Positions 5,814 through 36,725 of a DNA stretch of 64,000 nucleotides are shown in pieces. Numbering within the stretch: the stretch's first letter is position 1; every line of letters starts with the position of its first letter. Source of the DNA: Spirosoma montaniterrae. GTDB lineage: Bacteria > Bacteroidota > Bacteroidia > Cytophagales > Spirosomataceae. A program made the translations under genes and the position numbers. The stretch spans positions 5,436,501 through 5,500,500 of the forward strand of contig NZ_CP014263.1 in NCBI RefSeq assembly GCF_001988955.1, given 5' to 3'. The notes beneath the pieces were generated by a model. It ran no database searches, was not told where the DNA came from, and saw only the letters and a list, made by a program, of their open reading frames with translations.

Positions 5814-6000
5814 GTATGGCTGACGCAAAGGGGCTGACGCAGGCGGAGACGCAAGGGGGCTGACGCGAAGGAGACGCAAAGGGTTGCGTCTCTACAATTG
5901 ACCATCCGACGTAGAGACGCAACCCTTTGCGTCTCCGCCTGCGTCAGCCCCTTTGCGCCTGCGCCAGCCCCCGTTGCGTCTCTACGTGCGTCAGCCATAC
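5814..6000. repeat. Nested palindromic repeat built on the GAGACGCAA core
   Basis: A 187-bp intergenic element with several layers of symmetry. Two 25-nt cores, 5871-5895 and 5911-5935, are exact reverse complements, and each is itself a hairpin (GAGACGCAA, AGGG, TTGCGTCTC). A 29-nt left arm (5824-5852) is perfectly complementary to 5929-5957. The outermost 14 nt at 5814-5827 pair with 5987-6000. The same 25-nt core recurs exactly at 30779-30803, inside a gene. The element separates a plus-strand gene from a convergent minus-strand gene and could also stop transcription, but its repeat-family nature is clear. Confidence 0.85.
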
Positions 6001-29735: not shown

Positions 29736-32060
29736 TCAGTAGCACCGAACCTCCAGTAAACTCGCTGGCACGGTTGCGCCCGGTGCTTTCAGGTGAATTG
29801 TCAGGCTACTGGTTTCTATAGGCTGATCGAACCGGACGGTATTGCGTGCCTGATAGTTGCCAACCTGCTCAAAAACGCGCTCCTGCCGGTCGTTGCAGAG
29901 CACATAATTGCGTACACAAAACGGCGACTGTGTTTCAGGATTGAGCATAATCACCGTTTCGAGCGGGTGGTCGAAGTCGGTATCGAATGCCAGTTCGACC
30001 CGGCTGATTCGCTGTTTTTGGGGCCAGGTCAGCGTAATGGTTGGGTTAAGATCGGTCAGGCTGGCTACCCAGGCGTTTGGCTGATCGACGGGGCGTTGCA
30101 AGCCGTTTCGGATATTTTCGGGCGCGAACAGCCTAATGCCGCCATCAATTTTCAGGGCAATATTGTACCCTCCTGGTCGGCGTTCCGGGCACCAGAACTC
30201 AAATGTTTCTACGCCAATGTCCTCGGTTGGCTCCTGCTTTCCCCAGTTCGACACGGCAGGGTTGGTTTTATTGAACACCGACAGCACACCCGTCAGGCGT
30301 AACTGGCTGTATTGCAGGGTGATGTGCTCGTTTTTTATAAAGCAGACGAATACATACTGCGGCTGTTCGAGCGCAGACTTAAACGGCAGGTCGACCAATT
30401 GATTTCCTTTACCAAGTGGAATCGAAAGCGTTTCCAGCGTTATATCGGGTGTATGGTTGCCGGGTTTGCTGCTCCGGCGAAGCTCGACGGTCAGCGTGGT
30501 GGTTGCGTTGGTTACGACCTGCACCTGCATGGCGGGTACGTTGCCAGCGGGTAGGGGCAGCATCTGAGCCGCCGAATCGGTAAGGGGCTGGAGCGGGCCG
30601 TTGGGTGGGAGTTCGGTCAGCACAAACTCGCTGCTTGCTGTCAGGGTAGCCGCGTGGGTCAGATCGTGTGGGTCGTGCAGGCGCAGGCCCGGAATGTGCT
30701 GCCCGGTTTTGAGCAGTTCCTGCTGTAGAGACGCAAGATATTGCGTCTCCTGTGCGTCAGCCAATACCATCCGGCGGTGAGACGCAAAGGGTTGCGTCTC
30801 TACAATTTGCCTGGGCAGTAGTCCCTGTTTCGTACACAATGCCGCAGCCATGCCTACCGCCTGCCCTATGTGGGCACCCGTTCCCATCACCCGCGACGAT
30901 CCAAATGCTACATGCGATGCCGAGATAATACGCCCGGCCAGAAACAGGTTCGATATGTTTCGGCTGTACATACACCGGTATGGAATGCCATAGATACCCT
31001 TGCTGTGCCACTGATTGCAGCCCGGTTTTTCGGAGAAGATACCATCAGCCGGGTGCAGGTCGATGCTCCAGCCGCCGAAAGCTACCGCGTCTGGATGTTC
31101 GCGCTGCTCCACTACGTCCTGCTGCGTCAGCATGTAATCGCCCTCGAAGCGTCGGCTTTCGCGTTTGCCGGGGATCGTACCAACCCACTCAAGCGTCATC
31201 GTTTCGGCTTCAGGGAAGAGACCGGAATTTTTGATGTGATTCCAGACGCCATATACTACCTTCCAGAGTTCCCACTTGATGGTTTCGGTCTCGTGAACGG
31301 TATCTAATCGCCCGCCGTACTCGATCCACCACAACTGACAGCCGAACTCTCTGGCGTTGAACTTGCGGTAGCGCGGAATTTTGGTGATGTCGCTGAGGGC
31401 GTAGGCGGGTGGCACAAACCGCACGGGCCGACCTGTATCTTTGGTGTAGAAATACAACGAATGGCCCAGCAACTCACCGTATTCAGCCGTAGGTGCGAAC
31501 TTCTCGCCAAACTCTTCCCGGCTCTCAGCCCCCATTCGGAAAGCAGCCCCGGCCTGAAACCCCACAACTCCATCGCCCGACGAATCGCAGAACAGCGGGG
31601 CCACGAGGTCGTACATCGTGCTGTTTTGCGAACAAAAAGCCCGTAGCGACTGGATGGCATCACCGGCTTTCTCCACGGCAAACACGACGGTGTTCAATAA
31701 CAGAGTAATGTTCGGTTCGAGGACAACTTTTTCGAGCAGGATGGTATCGAAAATCAGCGGATTGCCTTCGGGATTGCGATACCAGTTCTCCACTAACAGT
31801 TCATCGATAACACCGCCCTCGCGTGCCCAGCGATTGTTGTTGCCCATGTGCGACGTAGCACCCAGCACCCACAGCCGCACTTCGGACGAGGAGTTGCCGC
31901 CCAAAACGGGCCGGTCCTGTACCAGCACAACCCGGATGCCTGCCCGTGCTGCGGTAATGGCGCAACACGTACCCGACAGCCCTCCGCCAACTACAATCAG
32001 GTCGGCTTCGCAGCGGGTCGTTTTTAAGTCTCGTTTATGGGTTGCGTCGGCCTTTAGCAT
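29736..32060 (-). CDS. FAD-dependent oxidoreductase with an in-frame repeat insertion
   Basis: A 774-residue FAD-dependent protein without a signal. The dinucleotide site is DLIVVGGGLSGTCCAITAAR, followed by VLVQDRPVLGGNSSSEVRLW. The middle has SNLFLAGRIISASHVAFGSS and GTGAHIGQAVGMAAALC, typical of the FAD_oxidored group often found beside glycoside hydrolases. The C-terminal 200 residues look like beta-sandwich (carbohydrate-binding-like) sequence. Residues about 419-446 (IVETQPFASHRRMVLADAQE and on) come from an 81-bp palindromic repeat that keeps the frame. The start overlaps the GH2 3' end by 26 bp. The role is unproven; sugar oxidation is plausible. Confidence 0.85.
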   Translation of the reverse strand: MLKADATHKRDLKTTRCEADLIVVGGGLSGTCCAITAARAGIRVVLVQDRPVLGGNSSSEVRLWVLGATSHMGNNNRWAREGGVIDELLVENWYRNPEGNPLIFDTILLEKVVLEPNITLLLNTVVFAVEKAGDAIQSLRAFCSQNSTMYDLVAPLFCDSSGDGVVGFQAGAAFRMGAESREEFGEKFAPTAEYGELLGHSLYFYTKDTGRPVRFVPPAYALSDITKIPRYRKFNAREFGCQLWWIEYGGRLDTVHETETIKWELWKVVYGVWNHIKNSGLFPEAETMTLEWVGTIPGKRESRRFEGDYMLTQQDVVEQREHPDAVAFGGWSIDLHPADGIFSEKPGCNQWHSKGIYGIPYRCMYSRNISNLFLAGRIISASHVAFGSSRVMGTGAHIGQAVGMAAALCTKQGLLPRQIVETQPFASHRRMVLADAQETQYLASLQQELLKTGQHIPGLRLHDPHDLTHAATLTASSEFVLTELPPNGPLQPLTDSAAQMLPLPAGNVPAMQVQVVTNATTTLTVELRRSSKPGNHTPDITLETLSIPLGKGNQLVDLPFKSALEQPQYVFVCFIKNEHITLQYSQLRLTGVLSVFNKTNPAVSNWGKQEPTEDIGVETFEFWCPERRPGGYNIALKIDGGIRLFAPENIRNGLQRPVDQPNAWVASLTDLNPTITLTWPQKQRISRVELAFDTDFDHPLETVIMLNPETQSPFCVRNYVLCNDRQERVFEQVGNYQARNTVRFDQPIETSSLTIHLKAPGATVPASLLEVRCY
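30724..30804. repeat. 81-bp palindromic repeat inside the FAD oxidoreductase gene
   Basis: It starts TGTAGAGACGCAAGATATTG and ends TTGCGTCTCTACA. It contains, at 30779-30803, the exact 25-nt core found in the intergenic element at 5871-5895, and GTGCGTCAGCCA-type sequence as at 5986-5997. Its length is 27 codons and the host frame has no stop in it. The junctions fall where relatives have a short loop between PRQI and QQELL, so it appears to be a tolerated insertion. Confidence 0.85.
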
Positions 32061-35010
32061 CGGGTTGTGTAGTTAAGATCGGTGAAAAAATAGATTGACC
32101 ATTGGCGGTCAGGGTCGCCATCCGGTACTCATAGCGTTGCGTTGAGTCAGGTTGCATCAGAATGAACCGGCCTGTCTGGGCCGTTGTAATTTGCTCCCGC
32201 TGCCACGAACCGCTACCGACCCGTCGGTATTCGAGCAGGTAGCCAATGGCTTTCGGGACAGGGGCAAAGCACACGACAGTTTCTTTGTTTTCTCTTACAA
32301 CACCTTGAAAAACAGGTGGATTTGGGCGTTGACCGCCATCGGGTACTACCGTTCGCTCTTCCGACCAGTTGCTGGCGAAGTAGTTGTCTTTCAGTCGCTG
32401 AAACCGAAAGTAGTAAGGCTGACCATTGGTCAGGTTAGAAACAAACAACGTACCGGGATTGGTTGTCTGGATGGTACGTGCCGTTGCGTAATCACCGGGC
32501 TTCGTCGTTACCTGAACCCGGTACGCATAGTCGTCTTCGGGACTTGCATACCCAATGAAGAAACCTCCGTCTGCCGGTTCGACGTGCTGAATGGCGGGCG
32601 GGGCAAACTGTATCTTCTCAACGGTCACGGCCTGTGCGTTGGTTGGTTCGCTTTCGCCAAACCCGTTGATGCCCACTACAGCCACCTGGTACGTTCGGTC
32701 GGCGTTACGATTTCCGAAAGTCAGCTTTGGTACATCTACGTAGCTATTTAGCGTTGGCGGGGTTTCCTGCGTCAGGCTTCCTTCGCCGTAACGAACTTTA
32801 TACGCCGTTGCCGTTTGGTTTTTCTGGAAATGCACCCGAATGGTGCCGCCCCCACTGTGTCCGTTATAACCAATCCGGCTACCGAGGGCATACGTGATAC
32901 GTACCGGGAGCGGTTTTTGGTAGAAAATAGTTGTGTCGGCCAGCGCGTCGCCGGTCGGGGCCAGCAGTTCAAGCGTCATCGCAAAGGCGTCCGCGCCGGC
33001 GTCCTGGTCGGGTTGCCAGGCAAATGTCTGGGTTCGGGTGGGGTCGCCGGGGCGGATGTCGGGCAATTTGATGAGTCCGCTTTGCCCGATTTTGCCCGCA
33101 GCGTCGGTACGTTTCCAGAGCAGCCGGTAGCCGTGCAATGGGTAAGCGGGCAGGTCGAGCAGTTGGCGGGGCACCAGCGTGACCACGGCAGACGTGCCTT
33201 CGGTCTTTATGCTCAGGTCGCGCAGCGGATTGTGTTCGCGCCGAAACGACGCATACGCCCGCTTTTTCTGCCGATACACGTCCACCACGCCCCAGGCGCG
33301 ATTTTCGGAAAATTCTTTGGTTCCATGAAACCGGCTGCGGTAATCGTTAAACGTCCAGAGCGACCCGCCAATCAGGTACGGCAACCCACGTAGCGAGTCG
33401 ATGAGCGAGCGGGCGTTGAGGCCGGTATCGAGGGTTTCGCCCAAAATACCCGTGCCGTATTCCGTGTAAAACAGGGTCTGTTTCGGATGAAGCTGGTGCA
33501 GTTGCTGCGTCACGGGCCGCAGGTTTTTGCCGTATCGGTTCACGAAGCCGATGTCGCCTACGTCCAGAATATCGGGCGTAAACTGGGCCGTGTGGCTCAC
33601 GCACGACACCAGCCGGGTGCTATCTAACGTTCTGACAAACGGAATGGCCTGTTTTGTGTAATCGAGCGCGGTCGGAAACTCGCCGTATTCGTTGCCTACG
33701 CTCCAGGCTATGACCGAGGGGTGGTTGTACTGGTTGGTAACGAGCCGCGTCAGCCAGTCGGTCGGCATCGGATTGGCGGAGTCGGCCAGCCGGTCGTAGC
33801 CCCAGATTGGGATTTCGGAAATCACCAGCATACCGCGCTCGTCGAGATAATCCATCACCTCTTCGGGCAAACACAGGTGCGACAGCCGGGTCATGGTGCA
33901 GCCCATTCCTTTCAGCAAATCGATGTCTTCTTTGATGCGCCAGGTGGGCAGGGTATTACCCGTAGTGCGGTCGTCGGGAACGAGATTAAACCCCATTGGC
34001 CGGATGGATTCGCCGTTAAGTTTGAGGGTGTACGTAGCGTTGTCAAGTCCGATCTTGCGGATGCCGAAGCGTGATTTGACCTCACCCCCCGGCCCCCTCT
34101 CCTTGAAAAAAGGAGAGGGGGAGGTACTATGTCCACTTTCGGTCTGCGATGATATAGATTTATGATCCAAAGGGTCCAGACTAACCGCCGACGTGTACAA
34201 AAATGGGTCGTCGAAATGCCAGAGGTGCGTTTCGGCGGGTGTCAACGCCGTTTGTACCAGCACCGACGCCGTACTACTGGCCGGTACGTTCACCCGAAAT
34301 GGCAGCGAACGCCTGAACCTGTTCGGAGCCGACAGCTCGACCATACCCGTTGCTTCGGCAGGTTGTGCCGAGTGATTTTGCACGAATACCCGCACGGCTA
34401 CCGTCGCTGTTTTTTTGGATAAATCGACTGTTGGGGTGATATGTTGCCGAACGATACGTAGTGATTTGGTGACTTTCAGCGAAACAGGTCGCCGGATGCC
34501 GCCCCAGTTCCAGATGGCTCCGCGTGTGAGCGTATTATCGGCGCAAACGACTAACGTATTGAGACCATTGGCGTTGAGCCGGTTGGTAATATCGAACTCG
34601 AACGGCAGAAACCCGCTGTGGTTTTCGCCAAGCTTTTGCCCGTTGAGCCAGACCGTGCAGTCGTGGTACACGCCTTCGAATAGTAGCCGCACTACGTCAC
34701 CACTGCCGTTGGCGGGCGTAGCAAACGTGCGTCGATACCAGCCTTTGCCAACGTAGTGAGCATACTCGTTGCGTAGGTCCCAGTTGCCAGGCACAGGCAA
34801 CGAATCCCAATTCGCTACGTTGGCCGATGGACTGAACCAACCCTGCTGTTCGCCAATATCGTTCGGGTCGGTGCGAAACGCCCAGGTGCCGTTTAATGAC
34901 TGGGCGTGGGTTGGGTTGGGGAGAAGAAAAATAGCGATGAACGTCACCCAAATAGCTAACGGATGGTTTTTATCCCCTGCCCTAAAGGGGGGTATATGCA
35001 GGATATTCAT
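32035..35010 (-). CDS. Glycoside hydrolase family 2 protein with C-terminal fibronectin-like domains
   Basis: A 991-residue exported enzyme. The start ATG at 35010 overlaps the symporter stop (ATGA). A hydrophobic signal (AIWVTFIAIFLLPNPTHAQ) follows a long polar n-region. GH2 sandwich: NVANWDSLPVPGNWDLRNEY and VYHDCTVWLNGQKLGENHSG. The catalytic barrel carries the acid/base Glu in VIAWSVGNEYGEFP and the nucleophile Glu in TLFYTEYGTGILGE. The last 350 residues contain two fibronectin-III-like units (VPKLTFGNRNADRTYQVAVV; TNGQPYYFRFQRLKDNYF). It probably acts on beta-linked galactosides, glucuronides or mannosides. Residues about 296-311 are encoded by a palindromic repeat, an unusual in-frame insertion. 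Confidence 0.9.
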   Translation of the reverse strand: MNILHIPPFRAGDKNHPLAIWVTFIAIFLLPNPTHAQSLNGTWAFRTDPNDIGEQQGWFSPSANVANWDSLPVPGNWDLRNEYAHYVGKGWYRRTFATPANGSGDVVRLLFEGVYHDCTVWLNGQKLGENHSGFLPFEFDITNRLNANGLNTLVVCADNTLTRGAIWNWGGIRRPVSLKVTKSLRIVRQHITPTVDLSKKTATVAVRVFVQNHSAQPAEATGMVELSAPNRFRRSLPFRVNVPASSTASVLVQTALTPAETHLWHFDDPFLYTSAVSLDPLDHKSISSQTESGHSTSPSPFFKERGPGGEVKSRFGIRKIGLDNATYTLKLNGESIRPMGFNLVPDDRTTGNTLPTWRIKEDIDLLKGMGCTMTRLSHLCLPEEVMDYLDERGMLVISEIPIWGYDRLADSANPMPTDWLTRLVTNQYNHPSVIAWSVGNEYGEFPTALDYTKQAIPFVRTLDSTRLVSCVSHTAQFTPDILDVGDIGFVNRYGKNLRPVTQQLHQLHPKQTLFYTEYGTGILGETLDTGLNARSLIDSLRGLPYLIGGSLWTFNDYRSRFHGTKEFSENRAWGVVDVYRQKKRAYASFRREHNPLRDLSIKTEGTSAVVTLVPRQLLDLPAYPLHGYRLLWKRTDAAGKIGQSGLIKLPDIRPGDPTRTQTFAWQPDQDAGADAFAMTLELLAPTGDALADTTIFYQKPLPVRITYALGSRIGYNGHSGGGTIRVHFQKNQTATAYKVRYGEGSLTQETPPTLNSYVDVPKLTFGNRNADRTYQVAVVGINGFGESEPTNAQAVTVEKIQFAPPAIQHVEPADGGFFIGYASPEDDYAYRVQVTTKPGDYATARTIQTTNPGTLFVSNLTNGQPYYFRFQRLKDNYFASNWSEERTVVPDGGQRPNPPVFQGVVRENKETVVCFAPVPKAIGYLLEYRRVGSGSWQREQITTAQTGRFILMQPDSTQRYEYRMATLTANGQSIFSPILTTQPDAKGRRNP
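34080..34125. repeat. G/C-rich palindromic repeat inside the GH2 gene
   Basis: CCCCCTCTCCTT and AAGGAGAGGGGG form a hairpin with an A-rich loop, flanked by CCTCACCCCCCGGCC. It is the same family as the intergenic repeats at 18193 and 20147. On the coding strand it reads about TSPSPFFKERGPGGE, between QTESGHS and VKSRFGIRKIG. GH2 proteins normally have a short link here just before the RFGIR motif. Confidence 0.85.
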
Positions 35011-36725
35011 GCTGCTTCCTTTTGCGTGTGAATGGTTGATTGGCTCAATCTTTTTCGACTCGCCCGCCACGGGATCAGCGCAGCCACCAGAATCACTCCG
35101 CCAATCAGTGCGGTTGGCCCGGCCCCGGACGTAGCGAACGTACTTAACCCAAACAGCATCAGGGCCGTAAAGACCAGCGAGCCGGCAATGACCCGCAACC
35201 CAAAGCGATTCTGTTCGGCGATAGCCTCGGCTTCTTCCGGCGTAGTGTTCTCAGTTGCTTCGTTTAGTTTCTGCTGCCGGGCTATTTGGTAGCGGTAATA
35301 ATCGGGGGCTGTTGCGTTGCGGTTGCGCTGATAGAGTTCATGCACCAGCAGAAACAACAGCGTCAGGCCCACGCCGATCACGGTTTCGCCCGCCCGCGAG
35401 AGTTTATAATCGAGCAGCCAGGGCGACAGCACTTTAAAGAACAGGTTCACGGCCAGACCCACGCTGGTAATCCACAGCGTAGCCCGGCCCGTCAGGCGTT
35501 TCGAGAACAACGCCCAGAGCGGAGGAGCCAGTAGCGGTCCGCCCGTGATGGCCGAAATACTCAGCACGACCTCCACCATGCCGCCCGCCCGTGGCACCAG
35601 CAGCGCAATGCCGATCATGCCCAGCCCAAACACCCACGACGACCCCCGCGCCACGCGAATCAGTTGCCGGTCCGACGCGCCGGGGTTCATCAGTCCCTTG
35701 TAAATGTCGTTGGTAAATACTGCCGACACTACGTTCAGGGCCGTATTCGCGCTCGCCGACGTCGAGAAATACATGCCCGTGAGCATCAGGCCCAGCAAAC
35801 CAGGCGGCAACACCAACTGACAGATTTTGAGGTACGCATTCTCCGTATCCAAGCCCGCCAGCGACGGGTCTATCACGCGGTAAATCATCGGCGGCAGCAT
35901 CCAGATAACCGGCGCAATCAGGTACAGCCCGGCAAACAGAAACGCTACTTTCTGGGCCGATTTCGGCGATTTGACGCTCGTATAGCGTTGTACGAACGTC
36001 CAGTTGCCGCCGATGTAAGCGATGTGGTAGAAGACAAATGCCAGCACAAAACCGAGTGTATAATCCCCAGCCAGCGGGCTGAAAAAATCGGCAGGAACCT
36101 GACTGGTGAACCCCTCGAACCCACCTACCCGGTCGAGCGAGAGCGGCAGCAGGATAAACACAGCCGCCGACAGCACCACGAATTGCAGAATATCCGTCAC
36201 CATCACGGCCCACAGCCCGCCAACGGCGGTGTAGGCAATCATGAAGATACCCAGCCCGATAGTGGTCGGTACGAGTGGCAGATTAAGCGACGAGCTAACT
36301 AATTTCGCCACCGGATACAGCACCGACCCTTTGATGAAAATGCTGACAAGCGTGAAGATGAAAATATAAGCTTTTTGCACGGTCAGCCCCAACCGTTCGC
36401 GAATGAATTCGGCGGCTGTCAGGGCACCGGTTTGTTTCCAGCGCGGAGCCAAGTAAAGCCCCGTTACGATGGCCCCGATGCACATGGTCCACTGGATGGT
36501 GATGGCGACCCAGCCGTATTTGTAGGCGATGCTGCCCCAGGCCACGAACGTACCGGCTGAGAAGAAACTCATGAACAGCGACAAACCGCCGATAAACCAC
36601 GGCACGGCCTCGCCCCCCGCAAAAAACGATTTCAGGTTGCGCCCCGTCCGGGCAAACAACAGCCCGATTCCCAGCACAAACGCCGAGAAAATGACAATAA
36701 CGGCGGTATCAATGGTTGTGTTCAA
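35007..36725 (-). CDS. Sodium:solute symporter (SSS family)
   Basis: A 572-residue inner-membrane carrier with about 13-14 hydrophobic segments. Family features include FARTGRNLKSFFAGGEAVPW, MSFFSAGTFVAWGSIAYKYG, MTGMYFSTSASANTALNVVS and FTNDIYKGLMNPGASDRQLI. It imports a sugar or related solute with sodium. The only start after an in-frame stop is TTG at 36725, giving MNTTIDTAVIVIFSAF. The stop overlaps the GH2 start, making the first link of a coupled symporter-GH2-oxidoreductase operon. Only 34 bp separate it from the divergent DUF6934 gene. It probably carries the product of the GH2 enzyme (inference). Confidence 0.9.
   Translation of the reverse strand: MNTTIDTAVIVIFSAFVLGIGLLFARTGRNLKSFFAGGEAVPWFIGGLSLFMSFFSAGTFVAWGSIAYKYGWVAITIQWTMCIGAIVTGLYLAPRWKQTGALTAAEFIRERLGLTVQKAYIFIFTLVSIFIKGSVLYPVAKLVSSSLNLPLVPTTIGLGIFMIAYTAVGGLWAVMVTDILQFVVLSAAVFILLPLSLDRVGGFEGFTSQVPADFFSPLAGDYTLGFVLAFVFYHIAYIGGNWTFVQRYTSVKSPKSAQKVAFLFAGLYLIAPVIWMLPPMIYRVIDPSLAGLDTENAYLKICQLVLPPGLLGLMLTGMYFSTSASANTALNVVSAVFTNDIYKGLMNPGASDRQLIRVARGSSWVFGLGMIGIALLVPRAGGMVEVVLSISAITGGPLLAPPLWALFSKRLTGRATLWITSVGLAVNLFFKVLSPWLLDYKLSRAGETVIGVGLTLLFLLVHELYQRNRNATAPDYYRYQIARQQKLNEATENTTPEEAEAIAEQNRFGLRVIAGSLVFTALMLFGLSTFATSGAGPTALIGGVILVAALIPWRASRKRLSQSTIHTQKEAA

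Follow-up and report, generated by a model that had tools for sequence, protein, structure and literature searches.

GTAG-tagged REPs are known as stem-loops (stem 5-13, loop 2-20) which pair into head-head and tail-tail dimers (Di Nocera 2013, PMC3733652); in the portions of that work drawn on here they are mostly intergenic, some lie in ORFs, and inserted dimers or groups encode 20-30 aa (PMC3733652). Such dimers have been linked to RAYT/TnpA-REP single-strand transposases in the consulted sections of three papers (PMC3733652, PMC8266576, PMC6006769). In the REPIN, an inverted REP pair and its spacer form a replicating unit for which a hairpin in ssDNA has been predicted, an arrangement comparable with the one reported below (Bertels and Rainey 2011, PMC3116915); the excerpted text describes REPINs as extragenic, with only 14 of ~1,067 16-mers overlapping genes in SBW25 (PMC3116915). 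The RPEs of Rickettsia are palindromic repeats read in frame as inserts in unrelated proteins, as is the element considered here (PMC10969869, in part). In-frame REPs and RPEs are both established. As for the Bacteroidetes, the same partial sources list CGTC repeats (PMC3733652) and describe TnpA-REP subclasses with REPs (PMC6006769).

The window (the whole 64-kb stretch of DNA analysed) belongs to genome G000 of the Spirosoma group, one contig of 5,797,678 bases (5.80 Mb), and holds a REP within a gene for an FAD-dependent oxidoreductase. The repeat family resembles the GTAG REPs of Di Nocera, as far as the consulted portions describe them, in its tag, stem of 9 and loop of 4, dimers, mostly intergenic location and REP-supplied TAG stops (PMC3733652). 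Judging from sequence, it is very probable that a GTAG-REP dimer entered, in frame, a tolerant linker directly behind the FAD domain, giving a predicted protein with 26 repeat-derived residues.

The REP dimer and its host gene

The features of the window under discussion are as follows.

29736..32060, minus strand: host gene, 774-aa FAD-dependent oxidoreductase; PF12831 at residues 20-419, repeat beginning at residue 420
30725..30803, no strand assigned: REP head-head dimer of 79 bp with GTAG outside at both ends; host-ORF frame kept, residues 420-445
30725..30749, plus strand: left REP; GTAG tag 30725-30728, stem GAGACGCAA 30728-30736, loop GATA, stem TTGCGTCTC 30741-30749
30750..30778, plus strand: asymmetric spacer of 29 nt with the family boxes GCGTCAGC (30754-30761) and CCATCCGG (30767-30774)
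30779..30803, minus strand: right REP, inverted; stem GAGACGCAA, loop AGGG, stem TTGCGTCTC, CTAC end
5870..5936, no strand assigned: tail-tail dimer of this REP family in an intergenic region; GTAG inside, spacer of 15 nt
5814..6000, no strand assigned: nested inverted-repeat array around the intergenic dimer; GCTGACGC/GCGTCAGC boxes, third GTAG end at 5974-5985

On the plus strand, the element reads GTAG-AGACGCAA-GATA-TTGCGTCTC, followed by the 29-nt spacer and the inverted partner ending in CTAC; the stem comprises 9 and the loop 4 nucleotides, with the last G of GTAG as the first stem base. The arms of the dimer (26 nt) are 85% complementary, and as ssDNA the 79-bp element folds at -23.4 (plus strand) and -24.3 kcal/mol (minus strand), shuffled sequences averaging -9.8 and -9.7 (z of -6.6 and -6.9). 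A GTAG-tagged stem-loop at 30725 faces its inverted copy at 30803, as in GTAG-tagged REPs, and the inverted pair enclosing spacer boxes that recur in the family matches the architecture of a REPIN; the element is a REPIN-like head-head dimer of a GTAG-tagged REP family. The first-pass annotation had placed an 81-bp palindromic repeat at 30724..30804, of which the location and the palindrome stand, but the repeat proper measures 79 bp, the longer version adding one T and one A. The exact match that it had reported with the element at 5871 is likewise present, but spans 29 nt (30779-30807 = 5871-5899) instead of 25, and the further similarity between the two is real: CCATCCG occurs in both spacers, and GCGTCAGC is present in the spacer of the insert and flanks the intergenic dimer. 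Allowing two mismatches, 10 REP matches were counted in the 64-kb window against 4.3 expected, and 2 of 100 shuffles reached that count of 10. The array around the intergenic dimer includes several further inverted repeats and GCTGACGC boxes and exceeds one REP dimer in size.

The host ORF stays open through the repeat, residues 420-445 reading VETQPFASHRRMVLADAQETQYLASL, and the last base of the 79 bp starts codon 446. The ORF and its codons bear out the earlier claims that the repeat is in frame without a stop, and that about 27 repeat-derived residues lie near positions 419-446 (26-27 were found, i.e., residues 420-445 and one base of 446). The repeat lies directly behind the FAD domain, at a domain boundary of the enzyme, for which comparison with solved structures gave weak matches, in the nucleotide-binding region only. 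In homologues, the linker at this site usually reads like PRDLTEPxRMxxLQQELL; compared with L035 and others, ~8-10 native linker residues have been replaced by ~25-27 repeat-derived ones (net ~+17). The suggested check, a homologue gap of about 27 residues exactly at the repeat edges, therefore fails literally because of this replacement, though the insert itself is clear. A clean 27-residue insertion was ruled out by the same loss of native residues. The rows nearest to the window protein (P0001) in the host tree, namely P0002, P0010 and P0013, all have the ordinary linker, so the repeat is missing from the closest homologues, as had been anticipated. As for homologues that might have the same residues without the DNA repeat, the residues do occur in some, and the DNA was repeat-like wherever it was read, with the Runella locus L299 doubtful.

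The REP family in the genome, the genus and the phylum

A genome-wide search, a check proposed in the first-pass annotation, was run with GTAGAGACGCAA and returned 200 exact ends in G000 (102 forward and 98 reverse) against 4 for the reversed pattern (3 and 1), a number well above what chance would give. About 475 kb of this genome (the window, REP loci and further stretches) were inspected in 92 clusters, which hold 176 of the 200 exact ends, 24 lying outside; 167 of the 200 are listed by position. Both kinds of dimer that mark GTAG-tagged REPs occur in this DNA, 31 being head-head and 38 tail-tail, the latter with identical spacing in 29 cases. Among the head-head dimers, the first spacer box (GCGTCAGC or GCGYCAGC) is found in 24/31 and the second (CCATCCGG) in 22/31. 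The family is of high copy number and mostly extragenic: coding-like flanks (at least 30 codons in one frame, called from frame and codon score on both sides) surround 5 of the 92 clusters, 4 of which lie in real genes and one (1536556) antisense to a gene that is ended by the TAG of the REP. Three exact head-head dimers lie inside genes, and each has a length of 1 mod 3, which is what keeping the frame needs; the other 28 are split 9/7/12 over 0/1/2. Family-wide selection for an open VETQ frame is unsupported, since the 28 non-genic dimers offer 56 strands, of which 20 are open against 21.1 expected with shuffled spacers. At 29 of the 176 ends considered, the TAG of the GTAG end closes an upstream frame of at least 100 codons (these being open frames, not confirmed genes), the other two phases giving 14 and 4.

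Beyond G000, a survey of the genus found the motif in 31 of 36 genomes (G000 included), with counts outside G000 ranging from 0 to 72. Of 395 genomes sampled from the phylum, 22 have the stem GAGACGCAAN4TTGCGTCTC, with no control matches in the rows shown; it is most frequent in G000 (178), followed by G155 (83), G222 (52) and G218 (49).

Other genes of the same genome

On the evidence of their DNA, at least five more genes of G000 can be read as carrying internal in-frame REP sequence, making six, so that in-frame coding in unrelated genes, a property of RPEs, is found here as well. The additional genes (positions in G000) are:

1273820: cysteine desulfurase paralogue with REP dimer; arm DNA match
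3481923: cysteine desulfurase paralogue with REP dimer; insert starting at residue 260
1879556: B12-binding/MeaB mutase with REP dimer between those domains; arm DNA match
243541: RNase P protein with degenerate REP dimer; outside the 92 clusters
5272158: ABC-F ATPase with degraded REP stretch between the ABC and C-terminal domains; outside the 92 clusters

In all six genes, the DNA of the left and right arms matches the REP better than synonymous recodings of the same peptide do (P 0.002 or less), with arm matches of 19-21/21 in five genes and 16/21 in the ABC-F copy. The two desulfurase paralogues hold their dimers at one homologous site just before LRDRLE, with opposite spacer orientations; compared with the copy at 3481923, E. 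coli IscS (1p3w) lacks 11 residues where the alignment spans the insert. Among the 119 listed relatives of the RNase P protein no full insert was found, and P0122 has a short REP-like stretch. Three C-terminal fusions in G000 (5198470, 1399107 and 3055264), which we take to be a transporter, a HypD-like protein and a helix-hairpin-helix-like protein, respectively, are not included among the six.

A further palindromic repeat, CCTCACC...CCCTCTCCTT...AAGGAGAGGGG, unrelated to the REP, lies at 34078-34119 of the window (ORF 32035-35070, minus strand), where a GH2 beta-galactosidase-like gene reads it in frame as PSPFFKERGPGGEV; two copies of this type stand close together (1881216 and 1881275) in the mutase ORF of G000.

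The same linkers in other species

For the FAD oxidoreductase, 8 of 120 homologue rows have a REP-derived linker by peptide, with 6 changes on the tree (labels assigned by hand and eye; FastTree tree built without the linker columns). The linker holds a full REP dimer in the orthologues of G010, G007 and G022, and REP-like remnants in G001, G018 and G029. The insert of G022 is 109 nt long and has an extra GC-rich piece in both arms, the first 39 nt staying complementary. A GC-rich piece (GCCGGTCCGCCGGTGCGG in L044, there in both arms) lies inside REP arms at several sites, which looks like the entry of one repeat into another; it was observed in L044, L154 and L254 and in rows P0012, P0252, P0271 and P0348 (peptides such as AGPPVRSL).

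Among the cysteine desulfurases, the REP peptide signature (labels being peptide patterns) occurs in 32 of 118 homologues, with 24 changes on the tree, at least 10 of which are forced by starred branches. The tree took 118 of 120 rows, P0248 and P0249 having been dropped because their linker could not be cut out; weak inner branches, drawn open, number 28/117 in the FAD tree and 48/115 in the desulfurase tree. The mutase linker was read in 29 of 30 loci (L214 left out): that of G021 contains REP-like sequence, and those of G022, G001, G018 and G011 may retain remnants. At the REP linker of two desulfurase loci, L156 (G004) and L148 (G007), the reading frame is broken, a hint that REP inserts can also be harmful.

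Since the REP peptide ETQRIASLRD is similar to native linkers of the desulfurase (e.g., DTQRIGQLRD), the linker DNA was compared with synonymous recodings. Far above these stand 12 of 28 loci, including both window-genome desulfurases and the window gene, with best arms of 17-21/21 against means of 12-15 (P <= 0.0005); rows with an ordinary linker fall at expectation. Of the 26 desulfurase loci, 19 were compared (L145, L146, L148, L156, L157, L159 and L160 being left out): 8 reach 18-21/21 (P <= 0.0005) and G017 reaches 17/21 (P 0.001), while G012, G003 and G035 are intermediate (P 0.019-0.059) and the remaining 7 are at expectation. At the FAD site, 14 of 30 loci were taken and 9 read, and 4 of the 9 reach 17-21/21 (P <= 0.0005), G022 gives P 0.027 and 4 are not significant. 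A further comparison of named records (41 of 80 loci, reported where P < 0.02 or where the linker exceeded 36 aa) revealed REP-like DNA at the FAD site within linkers of native length in Fibrisoma montanum (19/21, P 0.012), S. terrae (17/21) and a Runella MAG (20/21), L299 being the Runella FAD locus; L328 (11/21) is at chance level. Such linkers suggest trimming to, or replacement at, native length, with convergence possible for Runella.

Origin, spread and fate of the insert

We propose that one head-head GTAG REP dimer, REPIN-like and non-autonomous, entered the linker codons directly behind the FAD domain, and that the host frame stayed open through the combined effect of this insertion and the loss of some native codons, whereby the host protein would carry 26 repeat-derived residues; the reading GTA-GAG-ACG-CAA ... 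GCG-TCT-CTA (VETQxxAS...ETQxxASL) is stop-free in the window copy. The repeat would move by REP-type single-strand transposition, probably via a Y1/RAYT transposase, and its repeated presence would reflect repeated insertion. Copies which keep the frame in linkers would survive selection, native codons would subsequently be trimmed towards the native linker length, and the insert may be neutral or nearly so for the enzyme. The likely course would hence run from insertion through survival in linkers, if the frame is kept, and loss of native codons to decay of the arms.

For the FAD-site inserts across species, independent insertions fit best, the rival being one ancient insertion per gene, inherited, often lost and kept alike between repeats by gene conversion. 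This rival is unlikely, even though it would accommodate the right junction GCG TCT CTA C, fused to native L-Q/L-R codons, which is common to the FAD loci of G000, G010, G007 and G022 and recurs in most of the REP-bearing desulfurase loci printed, as well as arms that are near-perfect despite diverged flanks and a desulfurase label that is slightly clustered on the tree (24 changes against a shuffle mean of 28.2, with 14 of 500 shuffles as low). A single insertion is difficult to reconcile with the different junctions of FAD rows P0009 and P0051, with the varied type and orientation of the inserts at the FAD site (G000 and G022 agree at 66/79 when inverted and at 55/79 directly), with the opposite orientation of the desulfurase copies of G000 (3481923) and G027, or with close relatives that differ in state (P0266/P0314, P0246/P0259). 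That the residues are native and became repeat-like through convergence of linker codons is hardly credible, given that each arm of the window gene matches REP DNA at 21/21, where synonymous recodings reach 20 and 19 at most, and that its DNA follows the intergenic element over 29 nt; a convergent native peptide is ruled out by this DNA for the window copy, and possible for short rows of the same length such as L299. Convergence draws on the likeness between the native desulfurase linker and the REP peptide, on account of which some of the 32 rows labelled by peptide may be convergent, and on the native length of the REP-like linker at the Runella locus. It is quite improbable that the insert is kept, beyond tolerance, for a function as DNA or RNA in the gene (mRNA hairpin, pause, attenuation): 112 of 120 FAD homologues are not labelled REP-derived, the arms decay in several species and the insert is far from the gene start, against which can be set the stable hairpin of the ssDNA, the repetition at the same sites and the view, in the consulted portions of PMC3733652, that most REPs are transcribed and may act as RNA.

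Spread of the family by another transposase or by recombination, and not by a RAYT-type Y1 transposase, is a serious contender, if a somewhat doubtful one. All three Y1 genes of G000 were looked at, and none is flanked by the window REP within one mismatch, and GTAG[A/G]GACG[C/T]AA is absent within ~1.5 kb from 29 of 32 Y1 loci (the genus has >100 Y1 matches). The RAYT route is favoured by the GTAG tag, the stem-loop and the head-head and tail-tail dimers, which the parts of the literature considered give as hallmarks of RAYT substrates (PMC3733652, PMC8266576), and by one Y1 subfamily with this motif at its flank ends in G000 (L032), G007 (L189), G024 (L190) and G010 (in L173), though with none at its G026 member. 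The motif has 7 matches in 3 of the 32 Y1 loci, plus L173, and its reversed form 0 in 32, counts which are independent of the ORF picks (in a few loci none, or the wrong one). The link between the REP family and a RAYT/Y1 transposase is suggestive only. Identity of the repeats flanking the subfamily with the window REP was ruled out, as they form a different, longer element with 10-11/12 nt in common. A Y1 (IS200-like) gene adjoins a cysteine desulfurase gene of the kind carrying REP-derived codons at G026:C8:566156, G007:C19:298360, G010:C22:95214, G035:C1:5702623 and G024:C8:16836.

Extending the proposed repeated insertion into linkers, the REPs of the Spirosoma group may constitute a standing source of linker sequence, a tentative reading that we regard as almost evenly balanced. 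A few enzyme linkers (FAD oxidoreductase, cysteine desulfurases, B12-binding/MeaB mutase and perhaps RNase P protein and ABC-F) would be hit recurrently, the 26-codon unit would be trimmed and its codons would become ordinary linker; the likeness of ETQxxASL to DxQRIGxL would make hits tolerable, and CTAC (GTAG) at a native Leu codon would be the target. Native CTAC is found in a few rows (at the FAD site by eye, at the mutase site by pattern).

Comparison with known systems

In-frame REPs have so far been reported gene by gene, whereas in the present case many species seem to have taken repeated hits in the same linkers of metabolic and housekeeping enzymes; each such hit could therefore serve as a natural experiment in insertion, tolerance and decay, for which orthologues lacking the insert provide controls. 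This repeated occupancy, across species and in several genes, had been missed by the earlier description, and it offers a tractable system for how mobile DNA becomes protein sequence and for whether REP insertion has target preferences. The earlier assertion that no Bacteroidota counterpart is described goes too far for the repeat class; of intragenic in-frame REPs, none was found for this phylum in open-licence PMC full texts. Two points are apparently new, namely that Bacteroidota have a GTAG family some of whose copies are in frame, and that REPs recur at fixed linkers of several enzyme families.

In the portions of the survey drawn on, the GTAG families of Di Nocera belong to Proteobacteria, Cyanobacteria, Chloroflexi and PVC, not to Bacteroidetes, while the present family belongs to Bacteroidota (PMC3733652). 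The same source gives a site common across species, recB of two Xanthomonas (PMC3733652), the counterpart here being one linker occupied by REP-derived peptides in 32/118 desulfurase rows. Regarding transposases, TnpA-Y1 subclass 1.2 occurs in Cyanobacteria and Bacteroidetes, and the table consulted gives 'no' for REP (PMC6006769). The Y1 genes near related repeats have DHVH, WQ and YI..Q..HH motifs by eye, comparable to that subclass (PMC6006769), and unlike its listing without REP, four Y1 loci here have GTAG-tagged flank repeats, though not of the exact family.

The analogy with the in-frame palindromic elements of Rickettsia, drawn in the first-pass annotation, is sound with respect to the frame, yet the class differs, GTAG standing against CGTC (PMC3733652, in part). 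The RPEs of R. conorii end in CGTC according to the consulted text (PMC3733652), whereas the tag of the window element is GTAG; CGTC repeats are there presented without a dedicated transposase (PMC3733652), and RPEs are given as ~150 bp in the excerpted source (PMC10969869), against 79 bp here. The Spirosoma REP therefore works like an RPE without being one.
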